A stretch of DNA of 53,194 nt from Microthrixaceae bacterium (GTDB taxonomy: Bacteria > Actinomycetota > Acidimicrobiia > Acidimicrobiales > Acidimicrobilacustridaceae), in contig CANFQA010000016.1 of NCBI GenBank assembly GCA_947449015.1, positions 1 through 53,194 on the forward strand, read 5' to 3'. The notes under the pieces are model-generated. The model worked only from the letters and a program-made list of their open reading frames with translations, was not told the origin of the DNA and made no database searches. The position numbers were made by a program, and so were the translations under genes. Of this stretch, positions 5,523-16,368 are shown piece after piece; position 1 is the stretch's first letter, and the number at the start of each line of letters is the position of its first letter.

Positions 5523-5837
5523 TCAGTCCTGCTGCATCGTGGCCCAGAGGCCATGTTCGTGGAGACGGAACACGTCGAGTTCAGCCTTCTCCTTCGTCCC
5601 ATTGGAGACCACCGAGCGACCGTTGTTATGTACCTCGAGCATCATCGCTTCGGCCTTCTCGCGGCTATAGCCGAACACTTTTTGCAGCACGAAGGTCACG
5701 TAGCTCATGAGGTTGATCGGGTCGTTCCACACCAACACAATCCAGGGCCGATCGATATCGAGGGTTTCGTCGATATCGGGGTCGCGCACATTGACTGGTG
5801 CATCCGAGAGTCGAGCAGGCTGCGTTGACAATCTCAT
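5523..5837 (-). CDS. clpS: ATP-dependent Clp protease adaptor ClpS
   Basis: A 104-residue adaptor that recognises N-degron substrates and delivers them to ClpAP/ClpCP. The ClpS core is clear: [19 protein letters not shown], then [19 protein letters not shown], then [18 protein letters not shown]. The Asn-Asp-Pro and His-Asn motifs are those that form the N-end residue pocket. The start codon overlaps the ctaA stop by four bases (ATGA), so clpS is translationally coupled to heme A synthase. The unstructured N-terminal ~30 residues are typical of the family. Confidence 0.95.
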
Positions 5838-6811
5838 GCCAGCGGAACCTGAGGTTCGGTCGGTTCGGTGGAATGTGCAGTGAGATCAAGGCGGAATGCA
5901 AGGGCGGCCAACCACACGGTGACGCTCCCTGCGACATGCAGTAGCACGAACGGGGTCGGGACCCCGGTGAAGTACTGCGTGTACCCGATGGTGCCCTGGG
6001 CGAGGATGGCGACGACAAGGATCCTGGCGTCACGGTCGATGATGGCGGCGCTGCCCCGCCGGCGCAGCGCCACGAGGGTGATGATTGCGGTGGCGAGGAA
6101 CAGCCACACCGACGCACTGTGGATCTTGGCCACGGTCGTGATGTCGAAGGAGAGTCGGATGGCTTTTTCATCGCCGCCGTGCGGACCGGTGCCAGTGACC
6201 ACAGTGCCGGTCAGCACCGCCAGCGAGGCAAAGACAACCAGTGCGTTGCCGAGTCTGCGGATCTGGGCGGGTACCAGCGGCAGTCCGGCAGCGCCGTCAT
6301 GGCCTGCTCGATGATGCAGAACAAACGCGTTCCAAACCAGCACCATCGAGAGCACGAAATGCCCGATCACGAATGGTGGTCGCAGTTCGAACAGCACCGT
6401 GAGCCCGCCAAGGACGATCTGTCCCACCACGCCGGCCACGAGACCGAGCGACAACCAGGTGAGGTCGCGCCGCCGGGGCGTTCGTAGGAGCGATCCGAGA
6501 ACCGCGACGATGACCATCACCGAAACGAGACCGGTGATGGTGCGATTGATGAACTCCACCATGGCGTGATATTCGAGTGGCGCAACCAGACGATTCGACT
6601 CGCAGGTGGGCCAGTCAGAGCAGCCAAGTCCTGAGCCGGTCAGTCGGACCGCAGCTCCAGTGACGATGATGAACACCAGCGCAACCAACGCGAGCAGCGT
6701 GATGCGCTGATACGCCCGGGGGGAGAGTCGAGGCAAACGCACCTTGACGATGGTACGGGAGCCCTGTCGGGTTCCCCAACCGGCGGAGGCCGGATGAGTC
6801 GTTGCTCCCAT
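5834..6811 (-). CDS. ctaA: Heme A synthase (CtaA/COX15)
   Basis: A 325-residue polytopic protein that oxidises the C-8 methyl of heme O to the formyl group of heme A. It has about eight membrane helices in two similar halves. The family stretch [20 protein letters not shown] is followed by heme-ligand histidines in [28 protein letters not shown] and VLLHVAGS. I chose the ATG at 6811 over the ATG at 6850. It leaves room for a promoter in the divergent spacer with ctaB, and GACAAT lies seven bases upstream, fitting a leaderless start. The gene is the first of a ctaA-clpS-DUF2017 operon and supplies heme A to the caa3 oxidase encoded on the opposite strand. Confidence 0.93.
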
Positions 6812-6818
6812 TCCCACG

Positions 6819-6824
6819 ATTGTC
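6819..6824 (-). promoter_or_regulatory. Candidate -10 of ctaA (leaderless)
   Basis: GACAAT on the minus strand, seven bases before the ATG at 6811. There is no Shine-Dalgarno sequence. It is not a perfect TANNNT. Confidence 0.4.
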
Positions 6825-6844
6825 GGCCCTGATCCGGACGCCTC

Positions 6845-6850
6845 TAGCAT
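6845..6850 (+). promoter_or_regulatory. -10 of ctaB (leaderless)
   Basis: TAGCAT, eight bases before the ctaB ATG, with no Shine-Dalgarno sequence. It is divergent from the ctaA promoter within about 50 bp. Confidence 0.6.
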
Positions 6851-6858
6851 CGTGATCG

Positions 6859-7755
6859 ATGGAATCCGCCGCGCACCCCACCTCTCTGGCGCGGCTGAAG
6901 GGCTATATCGCCCTCACCAAGCCCCGCATCATTGAACTGCTGCTCATCACCACCGTCCCCACGATGGTGGTCGCCGAGCGCGGTCTGCCCTCGTTATGGC
7001 TCATCCTCGCAACGGTTCTTGGCGGCACCATGGCTGCCGGCGGGGCCAACGCCATCAATATGTACGTCGATCGCGATATCGACGCCATCATGAAGCGCAC
7101 CCGAAACCGACCGTTGGTTACCGGGCTCATTGCCCCTCGCAATGCCCTGATCTTCGCCATCGCCCTTGAATGCGTGGCCTTTCTCTGGCTCTGGGCCTTC
7201 GTCAACCTGCTGAGCGCCGCTCTGGCCGTGGCCGCCTGCCTGTTCTACGTGTTCGTCTACACGCTGTGGCTCAAGCGAACCTCTAAGAGCAACATCGTGA
7301 TCGGCGGCGCCGCCGGTGCTGCGCCGGTGCTGATCGGCTGGTCAGCGGTCACCAATTCGGTTGGCTGGGCTCCGATCCTGCTGTTCGCCATCATCTTTTA
7401 CTGGACCCCGCCGCATTTCTGGGCCCTCGCGATTCGTTATAAAGACGATTACGCGGCGGCTGACGTCCCGATGTTGCCGTCGGTGGTCACGTTGCATGAG
7501 ACCGCTGTCCGGATTCTCATCTACACGGTGTGGTTGTGGTTCCTCACGCTCGTGTTCGCACCGGTTGGCGCCATGGGTGTCATCTACTGGGTCGCGGCAA
7601 TTGTGCTTGGAGCGGTGTTCACAGCGTTCTCTGTGCAGCTGTTGCGCGACCCCACCCCGAACCGGGCGATGCGGCTTTTCACGTGGTCGATTACGTACAT
7701 CACGTTGTTGTTCGGAGCCATGGCACTCGATCAGTTGGTTAGGTCCGGGTTGTGA
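6859..7755 (+). CDS. ctaB: Protoheme IX farnesyltransferase (heme O synthase)
   Basis: A 298-residue UbiA-superfamily membrane prenyltransferase that attaches a farnesyl group to heme B. The first Asp-rich motif is NAINMYVDRDIDAIMKRTRN (residues ~63-82, N-x3-D-x3-D type). The second conserved region is DDYAAADVPMLPSV, preceded by FYWTPPHFWALAIRYK. About nine membrane helices are expected and fit the hydrophobicity. Its product is the substrate of CtaA, encoded divergently, and both feed the oxidase genes that follow. Start: ATG 6859, supported by a leaderless -10 hexamer. Confidence 0.96.
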   Translation: MESAAHPTSLARLKGYIALTKPRIIELLLITTVPTMVVAERGLPSLWLILATVLGGTMAAGGANAINMYVDRDIDAIMKRTRNRPLVTGLIAPRNALIFAIALECVAFLWLWAFVNLLSAALAVAACLFYVFVYTLWLKRTSKSNIVIGGAAGAAPVLIGWSAVTNSVGWAPILLFAIIFYWTPPHFWALAIRYKDDYAAADVPMLPSVVTLHETAVRILIYTVWLWFLTLVFAPVGAMGVIYWVAAIVLGAVFTAFSVQLLRDPTPNRAMRLFTWSITYITLLFGAMALDQLVRSGL

Positions 7756-7921: not shown

Positions 7922-9490
7922 ATGTCGATAACCGACTCGAGACCAGCGTCCGCCACTGCCTCTCATGAGGCAGCCACGGCAGCCGCTCCGGTCTCCGGCT
8001 CACTTCTTGGATCCGGTGATCACAAGGCCATCGGCCTTGTATATGTGGTCCTTTCGCTGCTGTTCGGTGCCGGTGCGCTCGTGGCGTTCCTTCTGGGCAA
8101 TCTGCACCTCGTGCAGTCCGGCTTCCTTTCGCCGAGCGCCTCGGACACCCTGCTGAATGCCTCCGAACTCGGTTTCGTGCTGCTTGTGGCCGTTCCGCTG
8201 TTCATTGGTCTGGCTACCTATGTCACTCCGCTGCAGGTTGGCGCGAACACCATCGCCTTCCCCCGGGCCGCCGCCATGGCGCTGTGGACCTGGATCCTTT
8301 CGAGCGGCCTGTTCATCATTGCTAACTGCGTCGATGGCGGCATCGGCGGCGGTCGCGACCGTGCGGTCGACCTGTGCCTACTTGCCATTGTCGGTCTGGT
8401 TCTGGCTCTGCTTTTGGCCACTGTTTGCGTGATCACCACAGTCATCACGCTCCGTTCGCCCGGCATGAGCCTTGATCGGGTCCCGATGTTCAGCTGGTCG
8501 ATGTTTGTGGCCGGGTCGGTCTGGATGCTCACGTTGCCGGTGCTTGTTGCCAACATCGTGCTCATCTACGTCGACCACCACTACGGCCGGCCCAGTGAAT
8601 TCGGTGTCAGCAGCGTCCAGGGCCTCCAGATCGGGTGGGTCATCTCCCAGCCGCAGCTGTATGCCTATGCGATCCCTGTGTTCGGCATTGCCGCCGATGT
8701 CATCGCCACGTTGAGCGGTCGTCGTCAGCCAAACCGCAGCGCCCTGCTTGTGGCCATCGGCGCCTTCGGTGCCCTCAGTGTCGGCGCCTATGCCCAGACC
8801 TACTTCTTCCCCGAGGTCCGCGATCAGATCGTGTGGGCAGCCATGGGCGTGCTCATCATCGTGCCGGTTCTGGCGATTCTCGGCGGATGGGCCGCACTGC
8901 TGAAGGACGGTCGTCCGGCGCTGAAGAGCCCGCTCGGCCTGTCACTGGTGTCGGTTGTGCTCGTGTTGCTTGCGGTCGTCGCCGGCGCACTCGCCACAAT
9001 CACCCCGCTGCAGCTGCGTGAAACCCCGCTGGTTGCCATTGGTCAGTTGGCTCTCATCATCGCTGCAGTTCTCGCCGCCGGTGTTGCCGGCGTCGTCTAC
9101 TGGGCTCCCAAGTTCACCGGCCGCTTCGCCAACGAGCCGGTTGGCCTGCTTGCCGTACTTGTCCTGCTTGGCGGCGGCGTGCTTGCCGGTCTGCCGTTCG
9201 TGGTGCTCGGCTTCTCCACCAAGTTCACGGGTCTCGACAGTGCTTCCGACGCCCTGCAGTACGTCGCCGTTGTTGGCGATGGCCTCGTCGCTCTCGGCGC
9301 GGTTCTTGGTCTTCTGGCCCTCGGCAGTGCCATGCGTGGCGCAGCTGCAGAGGCCGATGCTTGGGGCACGGGCCAGACTCTCGAGTGGATGTGCTCCTCG
9401 CCGCCCGCTCCGGAAGATTTCTCCGAACTCGTCACTGTCACGTCCGCTGAGCCGCTTCTTGATGCGGCCGCCGGCACCCAGGAGGCCTGA
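7922..9490 (+). CDS. Degenerate cytochrome c oxidase subunit I-like protein without heme/copper ligands
   Basis: A 522-residue protein with about 12 membrane helices, alignable by eye with the true CtaD at 12397. Shared scaffold: TYVTPLQVGANTIAFPR (CtaD: NYLMPLQIGARDVAYPR), R-x-PGM-x-L-x-R-x-P-x-F-x-W (~178-192), IPVFGIAADV (LPAFGLVSDI), VYWAPK (YYWPK) and the tail TLEWMCSSPPAPEDF (TIEWMIPSPVPEYNY). Every metal ligand is replaced: the helix II His by Asn79, HPEVY by QPQLY (Gln243, Tyr247 kept), the His-His pair by Gln-Thr (292-293), and the helix X HFH histidines by Gly and Leu. The K-channel lysine is also gone. It therefore cannot bind heme a, a3 or CuB in the known way. The frame is intact with no internal stops, so it is probably functional in another role. 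Start ATG 7922 follows CGAGG. Confidence 0.85.
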   Translation: MSITDSRPASATASHEAATAAAPVSGSLLGSGDHKAIGLVYVVLSLLFGAGALVAFLLGNLHLVQSGFLSPSASDTLLNASELGFVLLVAVPLFIGLATYVTPLQVGANTIAFPRAAAMALWTWILSSGLFIIANCVDGGIGGGRDRAVDLCLLAIVGLVLALLLATVCVITTVITLRSPGMSLDRVPMFSWSMFVAGSVWMLTLPVLVANIVLIYVDHHYGRPSEFGVSSVQGLQIGWVISQPQLYAYAIPVFGIAADVIATLSGRRQPNRSALLVAIGAFGALSVGAYAQTYFFPEVRDQIVWAAMGVLIIVPVLAILGGWAALLKDGRPALKSPLGLSLVSVVLVLLAVVAGALATITPLQLRETPLVAIGQLALIIAAVLAAGVAGVVYWAPKFTGRFANEPVGLLAVLVLLGGGVLAGLPFVVLGFSTKFTGLDSASDALQYVAVVGDGLVALGAVLGLLALGSAMRGAAAEADAWGTGQTLEWMCSSPPAPEDFSELVTVTSAEPLLDAAAGTQEA

Positions 9491-9492
9491 TC

Positions 9493-10083
9493 ATGGCTGC
9501 CCACGCCCTTCCGGCGGCTCCTCCCGTCCAGCGCCCCCGCGTGCTGGTGGTCGGCTCGGCCTTCGTATCCGCCGCCACCATCATGACTTTCGTCGGTCTG
9601 ATCGGCATCTACCTCACCCAGCGGGCGGCCATTCTTGGCGCCGGTGATACCTGGTTGCCCAAGGGCGTCACCATTCCGCTGCAGCAGCCCAACACCATGC
9701 TGTTCACCCTGCTCATGTCGGTGGTCACCATGCAGTGGGCAGTTCATGCCATCGCCAACAACGATCGCACCAACGCCTATCTCGCACTGGCCATCACCAT
9801 GTTCTTCGGGTTCGCCACCGTGGTGATGACTTGGTACCTCTACGGCCTCATGAAGCTCGACATCTCCGCCAGTTCGCAGGCGGTGCTGATCTACAGCATC
9901 ACCGGACTCCACCTGCTGTTGCTGGTGGTGGCGATGCTGTTCATTGCTCTTATGGCCTTCCGGGCCCTCGCCGGCAGCTTCGACGGCCGGCAGCACGATG
10001 GCATCACCGCAGCAGCATTGTTCTGGTACGCGGTGGTCGCCATCTATGTCCTCATCTGGATCACCATCTACGTGACGAAGTAG
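9493..10083 (+). CDS. Heme-copper oxidase subunit III-like membrane protein (divergent)
   Basis: A 196-residue, five-helix protein starting two bases after the preceding stop. It aligns with the true CtaE (14435): PNTMLFTLLMSVVTMQWAVHAI matches the CtaE stretch SSFVLLMSSLTMVLAVSAIE, YSITGLHLLLLVVAM matches YTLTGFHGVHVTVGI, and FWYAVVAIYVLIW matches YWHFVDVVWIFIF. Residues conserved in true subunit III are lost, including the Glu of LASECLLF and the His/Asp of YWHFVDVVW. With its neighbour it forms a second, non-canonical subunit I/III pair upstream of the genuine caa3 genes. Confidence 0.75.
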   Translation: MAAHALPAAPPVQRPRVLVVGSAFVSAATIMTFVGLIGIYLTQRAAILGAGDTWLPKGVTIPLQQPNTMLFTLLMSVVTMQWAVHAIANNDRTNAYLALAITMFFGFATVVMTWYLYGLMKLDISASSQAVLIYSITGLHLLLLVVAMLFIALMAFRALAGSFDGRQHDGITAAALFWYAVVAIYVLIWITIYVTK

Positions 10084-10089
10084 GTCTCC

Positions 10090-10953
10090 ATGCTCCAATC
10101 GCGCGTTTTCACCCCAGCCTTCCGATTCTTCGCCGGCCTCGCGGTCTTCGCATTTGTCGCGGCCTTGGTTGTCGGGTTCTCGAGCACCGTCCAGAGTCCC
10201 ATTGACCGGGTTCTCGGCCCGCTCACCCTCGGTTGGAAGGGCGGAGTCGGCAACCATGTGGCCTACGTCTTCTTCGTCGGCCTCTTCGGTCTCTCCGCTG
10301 GCCTTGCCGGCATCCTTGTGGCCTTCCGCGACGCCGATGCTGAGGCTGAGGCCCAGGTCGTGCACACCGAGAGCGTCCCGCTCACCCGAGCACCTGTCGG
10401 ACAGAACTTCATGCCGGCACTGGCGGCCTTCGGGTTCGTTTTGATGCTGGTCGGACTGGCCACCCAGACCCCGCTCTACGCCACGGTCGGCCTTGTCCTC
10501 GCATTGGTCGCCGGCTTCGTGTGGACCCTGCGCACCTGGGCCGAGCGGGCCACCGGTGACAACAGCGCCAATGCCGAGCTGTACCACCGCTTTATCGACC
10601 CGCTGCGTACCCCAGTCATTGCCATTCTTTCCGTTGGGGTCGTGGCCATCGGCCTGTCACGAGTGCTGCTGGCAGTTTCCAAATCCAACTCGGTCATCGT
10701 GTTCGGCGTTGTGGCTGCGCTGTTCTTCGTCGTTGCCACGGTGCTCGCCCTTCGCCCCAACTCAGCTCGTTCGGTCACGACAGTTCTGGTCATCATCGGT
10801 GCCCTCGCGGTCATCATCGCCGGCGTCTTTGGCGCTGTGCATGGAGAGCGCAAGTTCGAAGAGCACAATTCGACCTCAACCGAGCAGGGTGCCCTGGCTC
10901 CATCGACCACTGCAGGTATCACCATCGTCATCGGCGAGGTTCAGCAGGCATGA
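10090..10953 (+). CDS. Seven-helix membrane protein of the oxidase-like module, function unknown
   Basis: 287 residues with predicted helices at about 12-30, 54-78, 106-124, 127-147, 174-195, 201-221 and 229-250, and a polar C-terminal tail of ~35 residues. I do not recognise the family. Residues ~104-150 (QNFMPALAAFGFVLMLVGLA...VAGFVWTLR) resemble the two-helix C-terminal extension of CtaD (PSYWPIVASFGMPIVAYGL...GALFGWVLE). The helix positions, aromatic/proline start and closing Phe-x-Trp are similar, so the protein may derive from an oxidase accessory segment. The gene starts six bases after the subunit III-like gene, and all three appear co-transcribed. No heme- or metal-binding motif is visible. 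Confidence 0.6.
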   Translation: MLQSRVFTPAFRFFAGLAVFAFVAALVVGFSSTVQSPIDRVLGPLTLGWKGGVGNHVAYVFFVGLFGLSAGLAGILVAFRDADAEAEAQVVHTESVPLTRAPVGQNFMPALAAFGFVLMLVGLATQTPLYATVGLVLALVAGFVWTLRTWAERATGDNSANAELYHRFIDPLRTPVIAILSVGVVAIGLSRVLLAVSKSNSVIVFGVVAALFFVVATVLALRPNSARSVTTVLVIIGALAVIIAGVFGAVHGERKFEEHNSTSTEQGALAPSTTAGITIVIGEVQQA

Positions 10954-11117: not shown

Positions 11118-12344
11118 ATGTCTCGTCGTTCGCTTGGTCTGCGCATCTTCGGAGCCGTCGTCTTCGCCGTTATCGTCACGCTGTTCGCGGCGCTGATCTA
11201 CGCGGCATTCCAGAACGACGGGAAGCCGCTCGACACCTTTGTCCCGGGTGGCCCGTCGTCGAAAGAGATCCAGAATCTCGTTATCCCAGTGTTCGCTATC
11301 GCCGGCGTTGTGTTCGTTGGCGTTATGGGTGCGGTACTGCTCATCACCTGGAAGTTCCGCACCAAGGCCACCGATGACCCCGAGGAATTCCCCGAGCAGG
11401 TGCATGGTCGAACTGGTCTCGAGATCGGCTGGACCATCCTTCCGGCGCTCATCCTCGCCGGTGTCGCCGTGGGAACTGTGGCCACGATCATCAATCTGAA
11501 CAAGAAGGAAGACAAAGCCATTGAAGTTCAGGTGGCCGGTCAGCAGTGGTGGTGGCAGTACAAGTACGACATCAACGGTGACGGAAACTTCGACGGACCC
11601 GAGGACATCACCACCGCCACAGAGATGGTCGTTCCCGCAGGGCGTGCCATCCAGGTCACGACGACCTCCAATGACGTCATCCACTCCTTCTGGATCCCAG
11701 GTCTCAACGGCAAGAAAGACGCCGTTCCCGGCTTGCGCAGCCCCCTCAAGCTTCAGGCTGACACGCCCGGCGTGTACCGGGGCCAGTGCACCGAGTACTG
11801 CGGCTTGTCGCACGCCAACATGCGCATGCTCGTACGAGCGGTCTCAGCCTCGGACTACGAGGCGTGGGTTGCCAATCAGTTGAAGGATCATGCGGCTGAC
11901 CCCACCGATGCCAAGGCACTTTCGGGCAAGACCACCTGGAAGGCGCTCTGCGCCCAGTGCCATGTGATCAAGGGCGTGAATGACGAGAAGATGAAGACCG
12001 CCAAGGTCCCGCTCACCTCCGGTGTCGCTCCTGATCTCACCCATCTCATGACCCGCGGCACGTTTGCCGGTTCCATTCTCAATCTCTACGACCCGGTCGA
12101 CCCCAACGATCCCTCGGTCACACTGCCGGCCAGCGACATTGCTGCTGCTGGGTATCCCGGGGCGGCACTTACCGGTGGCAACGTTGACGTTTCCAGAGTC
12201 AATCGGGTATCGCTTGAGGCCTGGTTGCGCAATCCTGCCGCCATCAAGCCGAACTATGCCCAGGGTGGACGCGGTATGCCCAACCTTGGTCTGACCGAAG
12301 CCCAGATCGACGAACTCGTCGCCTATCTCGAGACCCTCAACTAG
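11118..12344 (+). CDS. ctaC: Cytochrome c oxidase subunit II with fused cytochrome c (caa3 type)
   Basis: 408 residues: two N-terminal membrane helices (~8-30 and 53-78), a CuA cupredoxin domain, and a C-terminal cytochrome c domain. CuA ligands are in QCTEYCGLSHANM, with the Trp-rich electron-entry motif QQWWWQYKY upstream. The heme c site is CAQCH (~residue 282) with a likely axial Met in GRGMPNLGL. This fusion defines a caa3 oxidase that takes electrons through its own heme c. Unusually, the CuA domain carries DINGDGNFDGPE just after the Trp motif, an exact EF-hand-type Asp-x-Asn-x-Asp-x-x-x-Asp-x-x-Glu loop. A good Shine-Dalgarno (GAGGAGAG) precedes the ATG. The 164-bp spacer upstream probably holds its own promoter. 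Confidence 0.96.
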   Translation: MSRRSLGLRIFGAVVFAVIVTLFAALIYAAFQNDGKPLDTFVPGGPSSKEIQNLVIPVFAIAGVVFVGVMGAVLLITWKFRTKATDDPEEFPEQVHGRTGLEIGWTILPALILAGVAVGTVATIINLNKKEDKAIEVQVAGQQWWWQYKYDINGDGNFDGPEDITTATEMVVPAGRAIQVTTTSNDVIHSFWIPGLNGKKDAVPGLRSPLKLQADTPGVYRGQCTEYCGLSHANMRMLVRAVSASDYEAWVANQLKDHAADPTDAKALSGKTTWKALCAQCHVIKGVNDEKMKTAKVPLTSGVAPDLTHLMTRGTFAGSILNLYDPVDPNDPSVTLPASDIAAAGYPGAALTGGNVDVSRVNRVSLEAWLRNPAAIKPNYAQGGRGMPNLGLTEAQIDELVAYLETLN

Positions 12345-12396: not shown

Positions 12397-14442
12397 ATGG
12401 CAATCATTGAAGCCCTGCCCACCGACCAGCTTGCCCTCCCGGGTGCAGTGACGTCCGACTACAAGCCAGCGGGTGTGTTCACGCGTCCCAAGGCGGGTGG
12501 CACCGGTTGGAAGTCTTGGCTCACCACTGTCGATCACAAGAAGATCGGCATCATGTACGGCGCCACCGCGCTTGTGTTTCTGCTTATCGGTGGGTTCGAA
12601 GCCATCCTCATCCGCGTGCAGTTGTGGTCGCCCCGCGGCACCCTGCTGAGCGCAAATGCCTACAACCAGGTGTTCACCATGCATGGCACCACCATGGTGT
12701 TCCTGGTGGTTATGCCCATTGGTGCGGCGTTCGCCAACTACCTCATGCCTTTGCAGATCGGCGCCCGTGACGTCGCCTATCCGCGCATCAACGCCTACAG
12801 CTACTGGATGTATCTCTTCGGTGGCATCTTCCTCAACACCAGCTGGCTGCTTGGCGGCGGTGCCGATGGCGGTTGGTTCAACTACGCCCCCAATAACGGC
12901 ATCCTTTACTCACCAAGCCATGGCATCGACTTCTGGAACCTTGGCCTGATCATCACCGGCATCGCGTCGCTCGCCGGTGCAGTCAACCTCATCGTCACCG
13001 TGCTCAATATGCGAGCACCGGGCATGACGCTTATGCGCATGCCGATCTTCACCTGGATGACCCTTGTCACCCAGTTCCTGCTTCTTTTCGCCATCCCCGT
13101 GCTCACCGTTGCCCAGGTGCTGCTCATGATGGACCGCACTTTCCACGCCAACTTCTTCAATGTGGCCAAGGGTGCCAATCCGCTCTTGTGGGAGCACCTG
13201 TTCTGGATCTTCGGTCACCCTGAGGTGTACCTGATGATCCTTCCGGCATTCGGTCTTGTCTCCGACATTCTTCCGACCTTCGCCCGCAAGCCCATCTTCG
13301 GTTACCCGTTCATCGTGTTCTCGGGTGTGGCCATTGGTTTCATGGGTTGGGGCGTGTGGGCTCACCACATGTTCGTGTCCGGCATCGGACCGATCTCAGT
13401 CACAGCCTTCTCGCTCACCACGATGTTCATCGCCGTGCCGACCGGCGTGAAGATTCTCAACTGGACCGCCACGATGTGGGGCGGCAAGTTGCGGTTCACC
13501 TCGCCGATGCTGTTCTCGATCGGCTTGGTCACCATGTTCACCATCGGTGGTCTCTCGGGCGTGACCCACTCGGTTGCCCCTGCTGACACCCAGCAGACTG
13601 ACACCTATTACATCGTGGCTCACTTCCACTATGTGCTGTTCGGTGGCGCCTTCTTCGGCTTCATCGGCGGGTTCTACTACTACTGGCCCAAGGTGTTCGG
13701 ATACATGCTCAATGAGAAGTTGGGCAAGACGAACTTCTGGTTGATGCTGCTTGGTTTCAACCTCACTTTTGCTCCGATGCACATCCTTGGTCTGCAGGGC
13801 ATGAGCCGTCGTATCTACACCTACGACGCCGGCTACGGGTTCGATCTTTGGAACAAGGTGGCCACCATCGGTGCGTTCACCCTGGCCAGCAGTGTGTTCC
13901 TGTTCATCTTCAACATCTTCTACAGCCGCTCAAAGGCCAAGTCTTTGCCGCCGGTTGGCGCTGATCCTTGGGATGCCCGCACTATCGAGTGGATGATCCC
14001 CTCGCCGGTGCCGGAGTACAACTACGACCCGATCCCCACCATCACCCGCGTTGACGACTTCTGGTACCGCAAGTACGGCGAGACCAAAGACGGCAAGCTC
14101 GTGCGTATTGCTGCCACCGAAGATGTGGTGCAGCAGCGCTCCGATGGCAAGCACATCCATCTGCCTTCACCGTCGTACTGGCCAATCGTGGCGTCGTTCG
14201 GCATGCCGATCGTTGCCTACGGCCTCATCTTCAACCTGTGGCTCTGCCTTGTCGGCGGCATCATCGTTGTTGGTGCACTGTTCGGCTGGGTGCTTGAGCC
14301 ACCGGATGATCCTGATGCCGCCCATGAGGATCACGACCCCGCTGCGCATGGATCCGACGACGGCACTGTCGTTGTGAACGCTGGTGAGGTTGCCGAGGCT
14401 GGCGATGTCGCCGCTGAGAAGGAGCCTGAGACCGTTGGCTAA
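12397..14442 (+). CDS. ctaD: Cytochrome c oxidase subunit I (caa3 type) with C-terminal extension
   Basis: A 681-residue catalytic subunit that reduces O2 and pumps protons. All canonical ligands are present: the heme a His in MHGTTMVF, CuB His, proton-path Glu and cross-link Tyr in FGHPEVY, the CuB His-His in WAHHMF, and the heme a/a3 histidines in AHFHYV. The K-channel lysine is in PTGVKILNW. After the usual 12-helix core, ending near EWMIPSPVPEYNY, there is an extra two-helix segment (PSYWPIVASFGMP to LFGWVLEPPDDP) and an acidic tail. Such extensions occur in caa3 enzymes. ctaE begins inside the last eight bases, so the two are translationally coupled. Confidence 0.97.
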   Translation: MAIIEALPTDQLALPGAVTSDYKPAGVFTRPKAGGTGWKSWLTTVDHKKIGIMYGATALVFLLIGGFEAILIRVQLWSPRGTLLSANAYNQVFTMHGTTMVFLVVMPIGAAFANYLMPLQIGARDVAYPRINAYSYWMYLFGGIFLNTSWLLGGGADGGWFNYAPNNGILYSPSHGIDFWNLGLIITGIASLAGAVNLIVTVLNMRAPGMTLMRMPIFTWMTLVTQFLLLFAIPVLTVAQVLLMMDRTFHANFFNVAKGANPLLWEHLFWIFGHPEVYLMILPAFGLVSDILPTFARKPIFGYPFIVFSGVAIGFMGWGVWAHHMFVSGIGPISVTAFSLTTMFIAVPTGVKILNWTATMWGGKLRFTSPMLFSIGLVTMFTIGGLSGVTHSVAPADTQQTDTYYIVAHFHYVLFGGAFFGFIGGFYYYWPKVFGYMLNEKLGKTNFWLMLLGFNLTFAPMHILGLQGMSRRIYTYDAGYGFDLWNKVATIGAFTLASSVFLFIFNIFYSRSKAKSLPPVGADPWDARTIEWMIPSPVPEYNYDPIPTITRVDDFWYRKYGETKDGKLVRIAATEDVVQQRSDGKHIHLPSPSYWPIVASFGMPIVAYGLIFNLWLCLVGGIIVVGALFGWVLEPPDDPDAAHEDHDPAAHGSDDGTVVVNAGEVAEAGDVAAEKEPETVG

Positions 14443-15067
14443 CGCAGTCCAGACCCATGAGTCGGTCGCCGCGGCCGACGCCCATGCCCCGCATGCGCAT
14501 ATCGATCACGACACCAACACCGGAATTTCCAACACCAAGCTTGGCATGTGGCTGTTTTTGGCCTCGGAGTGCCTGCTTTTCGGTGGTCTGATCACCACGT
14601 ATCTGCTTTACAAGCATCCACTCGAGGGTCCGACCCCGAAGGAAATCTTCGACATTCCCTTCACTTCGACCTCCTCGTTCGTGCTGCTGATGAGCTCGCT
14701 CACCATGGTGTTGGCCGTCTCGGCCATTGAGCGAGGCGACCATCAGCGTCTGCGTATCTGGCTTGGCGCAACTGCTCTGCTTGGTGCCACGTTCATCTCC
14801 GGTCAGATCTACGAGTTCACCGTGTTCGTGCGTGAGGGCCTTGGCTTCACCACAAGCCGGTTCAGCTCGGCGTTCTACACACTCACCGGGTTCCATGGCG
14901 TGCACGTCACCGTTGGCATCATCATGCTGATGTCGCTGGTGTTGCTGTCACTGCGCGGCAAGCTTCCCGAACACCGTGCCGAGACCGTTGAGATCATCGG
15001 CCTCTACTGGCACTTCGTCGACGTGGTGTGGATCTTCATCTTCGCCGTCGTCTATCTGATCCCCTAG
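14435..15067 (+). CDS. ctaE: Cytochrome c oxidase subunit III
   Basis: 210 residues and five membrane helices, with the subunit III landmarks GMWLFLASECLLFGGL (conserved Glu), TGFHGVHVTVGI and YWHFVDVVWIFIF. I chose the TTG at 14435, which overlaps the ctaD stop and has GAGAAGGAG about ten bases upstream. An in-frame upstream start at 14384 lies deep in ctaD and lacks such a site. Subunit III stabilises subunit I and supports proton uptake. Confidence 0.93.
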   Translation: MANAVQTHESVAAADAHAPHAHIDHDTNTGISNTKLGMWLFLASECLLFGGLITTYLLYKHPLEGPTPKEIFDIPFTSTSSFVLLMSSLTMVLAVSAIERGDHQRLRIWLGATALLGATFISGQIYEFTVFVREGLGFTTSRFSSAFYTLTGFHGVHVTVGIIMLMSLVLLSLRGKLPEHRAETVEIIGLYWHFVDVVWIFIFAVVYLIP

Positions 15068-15075
15068 GAGTTCCG

Positions 15076-15432
15076 ATGGCCATCACTTCGCACGACCCAA
15101 TTCCGACCTCGCAGCTCGACGGTGCCGTCAAGGACTACTCGCGCGACAAGGTCTATGTGCTGACCGCGCTGTTCCTCGCCGCGCTCACGGTTATTGAGAT
15201 CATGACCTATGCGTTCCCGGATTTCCCGGTCTGGTCTGGCAATCTCGTCATCGCCGTTCTGATGATCCTCATGGCCATCAAGTTCTTCACGGTGGTGTAC
15301 ATCTTCATGCACCTTCGTTTCGATAAGCCCATCCTCACGTGGATTTTTTGGGCGGGTGTCACTCTCGCGGCCGGTGTGTACTTGGTCGCTCTGTGCACCT
15401 TCCGAATCTTCTGGCCGGGCCACCACGGGTGA
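15076..15432 (+). CDS. ctaF: Cytochrome c oxidase subunit IV (prokaryotic COX4/CtaF-type)
   Basis: A small 118-residue protein with three membrane helices and a polar N-terminus. The motif FFTVVYIFMHLRFDKP, with its charged Phe-Met-His-Leu segment, is typical of the prokaryotic subunit IV family (Pfam COX4_pro). It starts eight bases after ctaE with TAGGAG just upstream of the ATG. It is a non-catalytic, structural or assembly component of the caa3 complex. Confidence 0.9.
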   Translation: MAITSHDPIPTSQLDGAVKDYSRDKVYVLTALFLAALTVIEIMTYAFPDFPVWSGNLVIAVLMILMAIKFFTVVYIFMHLRFDKPILTWIFWAGVTLAAGVYLVALCTFRIFWPGHHG

Positions 15433-15462: not shown

Positions 15463-16368
15463 GTGATCATCGCTACCAACACCATTCCGGCGTTCGCGCC
15501 GCATCTTGAGGTGTGGTTGCTGTCGGCCGCCGTAGTCGTTGGCGGTGTTTATGTCGTCAAGGTGATCGGCCCCAAGGTGGTGCCGGCCGGCGAGCCGGTT
15601 GTGACACGGCGACAGATCGGATTCTTCGCCGCTGCAGTGGCACTGATGACGCTCATGGCCATCTGGCCGATGCATGACATTGCCGAGCAGCGTCTCTATT
15701 CGGCCCATATGTTCCAGCATCTGGTGCTCACCCTCATGGTGCCACCGTTGTACTGGCTGTCATGTCCAGGCTGGTTGGCTGATCTTGTGGTCGGAACCGA
15801 TGGCTGGGCCTGGAAGGTGGTTCGCTGGGTGGGCCGACCGGTGATGGCTTGGGGCATTTTCAATGCCTTCAATCTGTTCAGTCACTGGGCTCCCTTCGTA
15901 AACACCGCAGTGACCAATGGCCCATTCCATTTCGGTGCGCATGTGCTGTTCGTCCTCACTGCGCTCATCATGTGGATCCCGGTCTGTGGCCCGTGGCCGC
16001 AACTGCGGCTCTCATTGCCGGGACAGATGGTGTATCTGTTCCTTCAGTCGGTCGTGCCCACTCTTCCGGCGGCGTGGTTGGCGAACTCTGAGTCGGTCAT
16101 TTACTCCTCCTATGACCAACCGATTCGGCTCTGGGGCATCAGTGCGCTCGACGATCAGATCGCTGCGGGAATCGTGATGAAGCTGCTTGAGGTGGCGTAC
16201 ATATGGGCGATCATCATCGGTTTGTTCTTCAAATGGGCTGGCCGTCACCTTGAGACCGATCGTCAGGGACGCACCCTCACCGAACGCGAGATCCTCGAAT
16301 GGGAGGGCGGTTCGGGCGGATTGAGTGCGTCGCCAGTGGCCGACCCGGTGACACGGTCGGACTCATAA
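15463..16368 (+). CDS. ctaG: Cytochrome c oxidase assembly factor CtaG (caa3 type)
   Basis: A 301-residue polytopic protein of the CtaG_caa3 family, needed in Bacillus and other Gram-positives for active caa3 oxidase, probably in CuB delivery. Landmarks are HMFQHLVLTLMVPPLYWL, the pattern SHW-x-PFVNTAVTNGPFH, a WPQLRLSLPGQMVYLFLQ helix, and GLFFKWAGRH near the C-terminus. The histidines in the first two motifs are candidate metal contacts. The GTG start lies 30 bases after ctaF, making this the last gene of the cta block. It is convergent with the ABC permease gene. Confidence 0.88.
   Translation: MIIATNTIPAFAPHLEVWLLSAAVVVGGVYVVKVIGPKVVPAGEPVVTRRQIGFFAAAVALMTLMAIWPMHDIAEQRLYSAHMFQHLVLTLMVPPLYWLSCPGWLADLVVGTDGWAWKVVRWVGRPVMAWGIFNAFNLFSHWAPFVNTAVTNGPFHFGAHVLFVLTALIMWIPVCGPWPQLRLSLPGQMVYLFLQSVVPTLPAAWLANSESVIYSSYDQPIRLWGISALDDQIAAGIVMKLLEVAYIWAIIIGLFFKWAGRHLETDRQGRTLTEREILEWEGGSGGLSASPVADPVTRSDS

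Follow-up and report, generated by a model that had tools for sequence, protein, structure and literature searches.

The sequence studied here, referred to as the window, is contig CANFQA010000016.1 (53,194 nt) of assembly GCA_947449015.1 from a Microthrixaceae bacterium of the order Acidimicrobiales. Its forward strand encodes a caa3 oxidase: ctaC with a cytochrome c domain for subunit II (11118..12344; COX2, Cytochrom_C and CoxB over cut-off), ctaD for an intact catalytic subunit I with all ligands present (12397..14442; COX1 6e-154, CtaD_CoxA over its NCBIfam cut-off), ctaE for subunit III (14384..15067; COX3 2.7e-21), whose listed start is a GTG and whose true start probably lies downstream, and ctaF for subunit IV (15076..15432; COX4_pro 1.6e-8). 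Three neighbours we take to be the heme A synthase gene ctaA (5834..6850, reverse strand), the heme O synthase gene ctaB (6859..7755, forward) and a gene for a caa3 CtaG-like assembly factor (15463..16368, forward), which follows ctaF in many of the loci compared. Between ctaB and ctaC, at 7922-10953 on the forward strand, lie three intact open frames that encode a paralogue of cytochrome c oxidase subunit I (COX1) of 522 aa (D-like; 7922..9490), a paralogue of subunit III (COX3) of 196 aa (E-like; 9493..10083) and a membrane fusion protein of 287 aa (the third protein; 10090..10953). The open-frame list agrees with the original prediction of three consecutive genes 2 and 6 bp apart. This trio is separated from ctaB by 166 bp and from ctaC by 164 bp, so a transcript of its own is possible.

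As originally predicted, D-like resembles CtaD over most of its length: it matches Pfam COX1 (6e-38, 131 bits, cut-off 34.8) over profile positions 2-404 of 436, and AlphaFold2 predicts a many-helix fold (pLDDT 72, pTM 0.79) that, among PDB entries, most resembles subunit I of aa3- and bo3-type oxidases (top TM about 0.80), a fold match that is partly built in because the modelling alignment included CtaD and QoxB rows. D-like stays below the cut-offs of the NCBIfam equivalogs for CtaD_CoxA (182.5 vs 670.75 bits) and aa3-type subunit I (167.2 vs 880), and the heme-type D-like proteins of loci L147 and L148 are likewise below the equivalog cut-off (337 bits). In family alignments the window D-like has lost every one of the six histidines that would ligate heme a, heme a3 and CuB. 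QPQ (residues 243-245; 8648..8656) replaces the HPE motif that holds a CuB His and the gating Glu in an alignment with 39 CtaD sequences, Q292-T293 (8795..8800) replaces the adjacent CuB His pair, and Q375-L-A377 (9044..9052) replaces the heme a3/heme a His-x-His. The CuB columns are thus occupied by Q243, Q292 and T293, that of heme a3 by Q375 and those of heme a by S81 and A377. All six losses claimed from the sequence therefore stand, with a correction at three sites, where the Asn, Gly and Leu originally named as replacements were misplaced by one or two residues. A shift of the ligands to nearby columns is ruled out, since the protein has five His and none lies at a ligand site; profile alignment found no His aligned elsewhere. 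The proton-path Glu and the K-channel Lys are gone as well (Q245 and I319), as is the D-channel Asp (T110), and the active-site Tyr is retained (Y247). Among 31 crown D-like proteins, 42 of 209 CtaD-invariant positions are kept in at least 70%, and at the 50% mark 14 of 20 Pro and 0 of 8 His are kept. Judged from these columns, what D-like retains of CtaD is structural, and the trio is predicted to be unable to reduce oxygen in the manner of A-type oxidases and to have no recognisable proton path. The missing D- and K-path residues also weaken the earlier suggestion of a proton channel.

The E-like protein matches Pfam COX3 (1.6e-15, 58.1 bits, cut-off 23.8) and aligns with CtaE by hhalign (E 1.8e-20). 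Of its predicted loss of the conserved Glu, His and Asp, one part holds throughout: none of the CtaE-invariant residues E146, H176 and D215 is kept in any of 40 E-like sequences. For His the statement is only half right, because H173 of CtaE is retained in 28 of the 40, the window E-like among them. The third protein has no Pfam match above any cut-off. Its residues ~80-147 (10327..10530) align with the C-terminal extension of CtaD (hhalign probability 96%, E 3.6e-9), bearing out the two-helix segment noticed earlier, and residues ~159-251 (10564..10842) align with the three-helix anchor of a membrane cupredoxin protein that sits behind ctaG in other actinobacterial caa3 operons, outside the order (probability 98.8%, E 9e-17). 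The CtaD extension is itself a match to PF12270 (Cyt_c_ox_IV, CtaF) and aligns with the third protein, whereas the operon's own ctaF aligns with it over a single column only; against PF12270 the window protein (P0003) has no match, and weak ones are seen in 5 of 30 relatives, the best at E 0.0064. An AlphaFold2 model, built from a 4-row alignment, reached pLDDT 44 and was not used. The cupredoxin domain with its copper ligands is absent from the window protein, and the ligand motif occurs in 13 of 46 third-protein rows; Pfam Cupredoxin_1 is over its cut-off in all five tested (four from deep families and that of locus L093). Both outgroup anchor-cupredoxin proteins run on Pfam are over a cupredoxin or copper-binding cut-off, and 14 outgroup loci are uninformative by motif, as its spacing misses their Cys-x4-His. 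From these alignments and its cupredoxin-bearing relatives, the third protein is more than a CtaD fragment: in it a CtaD-extension-like piece is joined to the anchor of a membrane cupredoxin protein.

How widespread is this arrangement? A search across relatives found the third gene in 265 of the 397 genomes sampled from the order. Of the 37 genomes in the window's family, 35 have D-like and the other two have a contig edge at ctaC. In 38 of 42 annotated loci the trio and ctaC-D-E-F, seven genes in all, follow one another in this order on a single strand (L005 and L066 among these 42 are the same place); three of the other four end at contig ends and one carries a deletion. Across the loci compared the trio stands between ctaB and ctaC with ctaA mostly divergent, and the gene order is retained in 21 families. 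The window's type of CtaD (E <= 1e-180) was found in 45 of 50 genomes hand-picked, about one per family, from the 265 carriers of the third gene, and in 3 of 132 genomes without it. Most sampled relatives in the order that have this oxidase also keep the look-alike trio, which probably helps to assemble the oxidase or keep it together. Beyond the order, this type of CtaD is also found without the trio, so the oxidase does not require it in general. Two genomes break the pairing: G060 has D-like, E-like and a cut third gene with ctaC-D-E-F missing behind them and a best CtaD that is 38% identical, and G278 has the CtaD type, with its match 1066 bases from a contig edge, and no trio was found there. 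Shared descent inflates the counts of neighbourhood and of co-occurrence between trio and caa3 genes, and neither kind of count is proof that their products touch.

In a quick tree with long branches, D-like comes out, at an open fork, as one clade (support 100) lying apart from both CtaD types that the order has. A recent tandem copy of the neighbouring ctaD, as a candidate source, is rejected by this placement of one old clade. The tree took 52 of 65 distinct rows, 13 being left out for size or because they were cut; counts at ligand columns rest on these 52, those for CuB and heme a on all 65. The CuB triad is present in 0 of 65 D-like sequences. Of the deep rows, 19 of 22 still have the heme-a His pair, against 5 of 43 in the crown, and none of the six His remains in 27 of the 43 crown rows. 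Among the third proteins, 12 of the 15 deep ones have the cupredoxin, as does 1 of the 31 from the crown; this table omits 6 of the 52 tree rows, whose third gene is cut by the locus end (the truncated L071 was kept). The heme-a pair accompanies 12 of the 13 cupredoxin-bearing third proteins; a tree-aware test of this association found 4 independent pairs, too few to reach significance. This graded pattern of CuB, heme a and cupredoxin places the window trio at the end of a stepwise loss: it appears to descend from a heme/blue-copper module without CuB, whose cofactors were lost while its fold and its link with caa3 were maintained. The idea that a subunit I/III core was duplicated, stripped of its chemistry and kept as an intact operon is supported in its core, the gene set being preserved in order and under selection, and needs revision in three points: the copy is old, the stripping was stepwise and the third protein is a fusion.

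We consider it probable that the trio has no catalytic role of its own and acts in the structure or assembly of the adjoining caa3 oxidase, being a copy of an A-type oxidase core that would serve the working enzyme encoded alongside. Its ancestor may have lacked CuB but retained heme a, and probably also heme a3, carried a blue-copper domain outside the membrane and handed electrons or copper on to caa3. In the window's lineage the redox groups would then have been lost one after another, leaving a putative metal-free membrane scaffold paired with caa3. A lasting partner, one that stabilises a dimer or supercomplex, seems more likely than a platform used for assembly only, that is, a mould for heme and copper insertion into CtaD and CtaC together with CtaA, CtaB and CtaG. 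We regard this narrower version as rather unlikely: the position between ctaB and ctaC with ctaA mostly divergent fits it, and an anchor shared with the outgroup membrane cupredoxin behind ctaG makes a copper-chaperone role conceivable, but an oxidase copy of three proteins would be an expensive chaperone and the copper-donating cupredoxin is absent from the window and from 30 of 31 crown third proteins. Tentatively, the trio might even represent a new respiratory complex, in which a CuB-less heme-a/blue-copper relay was wired to caa3, lost its cofactors in most of the order and is now a pseudo-oxidase in an obligate hetero-assembly of an active beside a dead core.

Other readings separate the trio from the oxidase or leave it some chemistry. 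An independent membrane complex (a transporter, channel or sensor) that shares only its neighbourhood with caa3 would suit the flanking gaps, which hint at a separate transcript, and the one genome that keeps D-like and E-like without an adjoining caa3; co-occurrence with one CtaD type, a gene order kept in 21 families and the lost D/K-path residues speak against it, and we think it unlikely. Crown D-like proteins could still bind heme or metal as redox proteins through other residues, for example Gln or Tyr, since Gln often occupies three of the former ligand positions (CuB1 19, CuB2 22 and a3 22 of 52 rows) and Tyr or Phe occupies the active-site position in 41 of 52. But the replacements at heme a vary widely (Tyr, Gly, Ser and others), and the total loss of ligand His in 27 crown rows, as in the window, makes such binding very improbable. 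That the trio is merely a decaying duplicate or pseudogene set is hardly credible. The lost active-site residues would fit decay, as would a D-like dN/dS about twice that of CtaD, yet in three genomes dN/dS is 0.14-0.25 for D-like, 0.10-0.22 for E-like and 0.10-0.20 for the third gene (CtaD, same genomes: 0.06-0.11), and within-genus D-like pairs have a median of 0.124 (90 of 91 usable). Relaxed selection, which the original prediction had named as a sign of pseudogenes, was not what these values of 0.10-0.25 indicate; with the open frames and the order-wide distribution they lead us to reject decay.

It is their metal sites that define heme-copper oxidases, and a literature search that covered few subscription papers found no whole oxidase core kept without them. 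A non-catalytic module beside caa3 would show what use the oxidase frame has without its chemistry and offer a test bed for the roles of subunit III and the extra subunits. One clade here holds a graded series, from heme ligands and blue copper down to none, beside a working enzyme. It also carries a warning for annotation: naming by homology would call D-like an oxidase subunit I, which it is predicted not to be.

Finally, we would like to place the trio among known systems. With CtaD-CtaE of A-type caa3/aa3 oxidases it shares homology over most of its length, the subunit I fold and the gene order I-III, and D-like keeps the Pro/Gly/Trp frame and the LEW...SPP tail motif of CtaD; unlike them, the window trio lacks heme and CuB ligands, the D/K-path residues and a CuA subunit II. 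Like Caa3_CtaG, CtaA and CtaB, its products are membrane proteins from one neighbourhood that would serve caa3, but the searches made reported no homology between these and the trio. In the passages of PMC9145763 consulted, no assembly factor resembling an oxidase is named. Elsewhere in the phylum, in further orders and classes, ctaG is followed by a gene for the three-helix membrane cupredoxin, whose anchor the third protein matches; the window protein, however, lacks the cupredoxin domain and carries a CtaD-extension-like part ahead of the anchor. One such outgroup protein, that of L133, resembles Pfam SoxE at a score under the threshold. In the SoxM-type supercomplex with sulfocyanin of Sulfolobales, an active heme-copper oxidase core is reportedly served by a membrane-bound blue-copper protein. 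The deep trio, as we reconstruct it, would resemble this pairing of an oxidase core with a membrane blue-copper protein, but SoxM is an active heme-copper oxidase.

In the window, the trio lies between ctaB (6859-7755) and ctaC (11118-12344), the latter with a cytochrome c domain, and its three genes run in the same direction: D-like (7922-9490), a Pfam COX1 homologue (131 bits against a cut-off of 34.8); E-like (9493-10083), a COX3 homologue (58 bits against 23.8) that follows after 2 bp; and, after a further 6 bp, the third (10090-10953), for which a Pfam search returned nothing above any cut-off. By their profile matches, ctaC, ctaD, ctaE and ctaF behind the trio are ordinary caa3 genes. 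As listed, the ctaE open frame starts at a GTG and shares its first 59 bases (14384-14442) with the end of ctaD; its true start is likely later. A COX1 family search of the genome (86 contigs, about 97% complete) found two matches, D-like and the neighbouring ctaD.

By descent and fold, D-like is a copy of a heme-copper oxidase; by its residues, it fails the definition of one. Read from an alignment with 39 CtaD proteins of the order, in all of which (39/39) every ligand is present, the window D-like carries S81, Q243, Q292, T293, Q375 and A377 at the six histidine columns, while Q245, I319 and T110 replace the gating Glu, the K-channel Lys and the D-channel Asp. Y247 preserves the active-site Tyr. 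Among 209 CtaD-invariant core positions, 42 are retained in at least 70% of 31 D-like proteins of the crown group, to which the window's trio belongs, and 70 in 5% or fewer; with 50% as the threshold, 14 of 20 Pro, 14 of 36 Gly and none of 8 His are kept. The CtaE residues E146, H176 and D215 are missing in 40/40 E-like proteins, and H173 is retained in 28. Modelled with AlphaFold2 (pLDDT 72, pTM 0.79), D-like has its best structural matches in oxidase subunit I chains (9gy6_F, E 4e-18, TM 0.80), an outcome favoured by the CtaD and QoxB rows in the input alignment.

Across three genomes with 80-97% protein identity, dN/dS was 0.14-0.25 for D-like, 0.10-0.22 for E-like and 0.10-0.20 for the third, against 0.06-0.11 for CtaD; the median among 14 D-like genes of the genus was 0.124 (90 of 91 pairs usable). 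Of 37 genomes of the family, 35 carry D-like and two do not: ctaD begins 461 bases into its contig in G007, and the contig ends within ctaC in G029. The third occurs in 265 of 397 genomes of the order (E <= 1e-15). D-like, E-like, the third, ctaC, ctaD, ctaE and ctaF lie on one strand in this order in 38 of 42 annotated loci, and these 38 represent 21 families; the 42 comprise the window, 40 fetched loci and L005, apparently the same locus as L066. L088, L093 and L102 run out at contig ends before the set is complete. All seven genes are also found in L147 and in ten loci of the deep group, from seven further families; in the deep locus L247, 4.7 kb separates the third and ctaC.

The trio is also tied to one type of CtaD. 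Matches to the window's CtaD fall into two groups, full-length at 60-74% identity (E < 1e-240) and at most 52%, with part-length pieces in G077 (65%, 56%) and G115 (55%) outside both; the 60-74% group is the CtaD type of the trio-linked caa3 operon. Among 50 hand-picked genomes that carry the third, 45 have this CtaD, as do 3 (E <= 1e-180) of the 132 genomes of the order without the third, counts that are less independent than they appear because of shared descent. Among the five genomes lacking an intact match, contig edges fall in ctaC or ctaD in G040, G098 and G066, and in G077 the gene is split in two pieces. In the three with this CtaD and no third, D-like sits at a contig end (G210), the contig ends in ctaC (G061), or the CtaD match begins 1066 bases into its contig (G278); a search of the rest of the G278 genome found no trio. 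The counter-example is G060, where this CtaD type is missing at the trio locus: D-like and E-like are uninterrupted frames, the third is cut short after 144 residues, and the gene that follows, on the opposite strand, shares 52.5% identity over 238 residues with the window gene behind ctaG, as if a single deletion had removed the end of the third together with ctaC to ctaG. L071, the fourth annotated locus with an incomplete set, is the one with this deletion.

In a tree of 87 rows, a quick search with long branches that held 52 of the 65 distinct D-like rows, all 52 form one clade (support 100) separate from the order's two CtaD types. None of the 65 rows has a complete CuB triad (three have one His there), 29 have none of the six His, and 13 retain the a3 His; the heme-a His pair survives in most deep rows (19 of 22) and in few crown rows (5 of 43). 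On the tree, at least five changes are needed for the heme-a pair and nine for the a3 His. The thirds of deep families end in a cupredoxin with a His...Cys-x-x-His...Met motif, found in 12 of 15 deep rows and one of 31 crown rows (L093), and above the Pfam cut-off in the five proteins tested (four deep and L093). The heme-a pair accompanies the cupredoxin in 12 of 13 rows; another four rows have only the pair, and 29 lack both. With only four independent pairs, the association is descriptive and does not amount to a test. L235 has the cupredoxin without the pair, L239 the reverse. The thirds of family f7 (L146, L151, L090) have a C-terminal stretch without a copper-ligand motif, perhaps a decayed cupredoxin; a Pfam search of the L146 third gave nothing above cut-off.

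The CtaD C-terminal extension is matched by residues ~80-147 of the window's third (E 3.6e-9); residues ~159-251 match the anchor found in a three-helix cupredoxin protein (E 9e-17). The gene for this protein comes directly after ctaG in 11 of 15 loci fetched from other orders of the class and adjoins ctaG in 15 of 16 from other classes, all selected for holding an anchor-cupredoxin match. Among the matches listed from two 198-genome searches that included order members, none from outside the order covers both halves of the third; G651 and G671, of other classes, have separate weak matches to its front half. The third thus seems to be a fusion that absorbed the cupredoxin protein, with the cupredoxin lost afterwards in most of the order. 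In actinobacterial caa3 operons, a gene for a membrane-anchored cupredoxin is repeatedly found behind ctaG (L201-L216, L133-L152); read by eye, L207-L210, L213, L215, L216 and L139 seemingly have two tandem cupredoxin domains.

A comparable arrangement occurs in another order (G426), where a 715-residue open frame (L135:7593-9737, minus strand) directly upstream of ctaC joins a cbb3-kind COX1 homologue to a cupredoxin and an anchor that resembles the third's. Its COX1 part holds two His (86, 164), and one more lies before it. The D-like profile did not pick up this fusion, so the position before ctaC may have been taken twice, seemingly independently, by a ligand-poor oxidase-like subunit linked to a membrane cupredoxin. 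A relative of its COX1-like part (L278:7367-9445 in G421, minus strand, 693 aa, 41% identity) has a single His in the region that aligns and carries a c-type cytochrome part (CxxCH) at its end; caa3 profiles run on 16 kb of that locus gave a weak CtaC match inside the same frame as the sole match. The L135 COX1-like part was matched in 53 of 198 class genomes. Ten such COX1 homologues from other orders of the class (L268-L277) seem His-poor, with 2-9 His in the aligned part, which may be an artefact of weak alignment.

The window trio retains its fold, gene order and company, but neither a cofactor site nor a proton path is recognised in it. It probably acts either as a structural partner of caa3 or as a platform for its assembly. 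The ancestral module would have combined heme-a ligands and a blue-copper domain without CuB, and could have passed electrons or copper, though not reduced oxygen as an A-type oxidase does. The literature searched yielded no description of such a complex; membrane-bound cupredoxins do appear in a scheme of iron oxidisers (PMC8239418).
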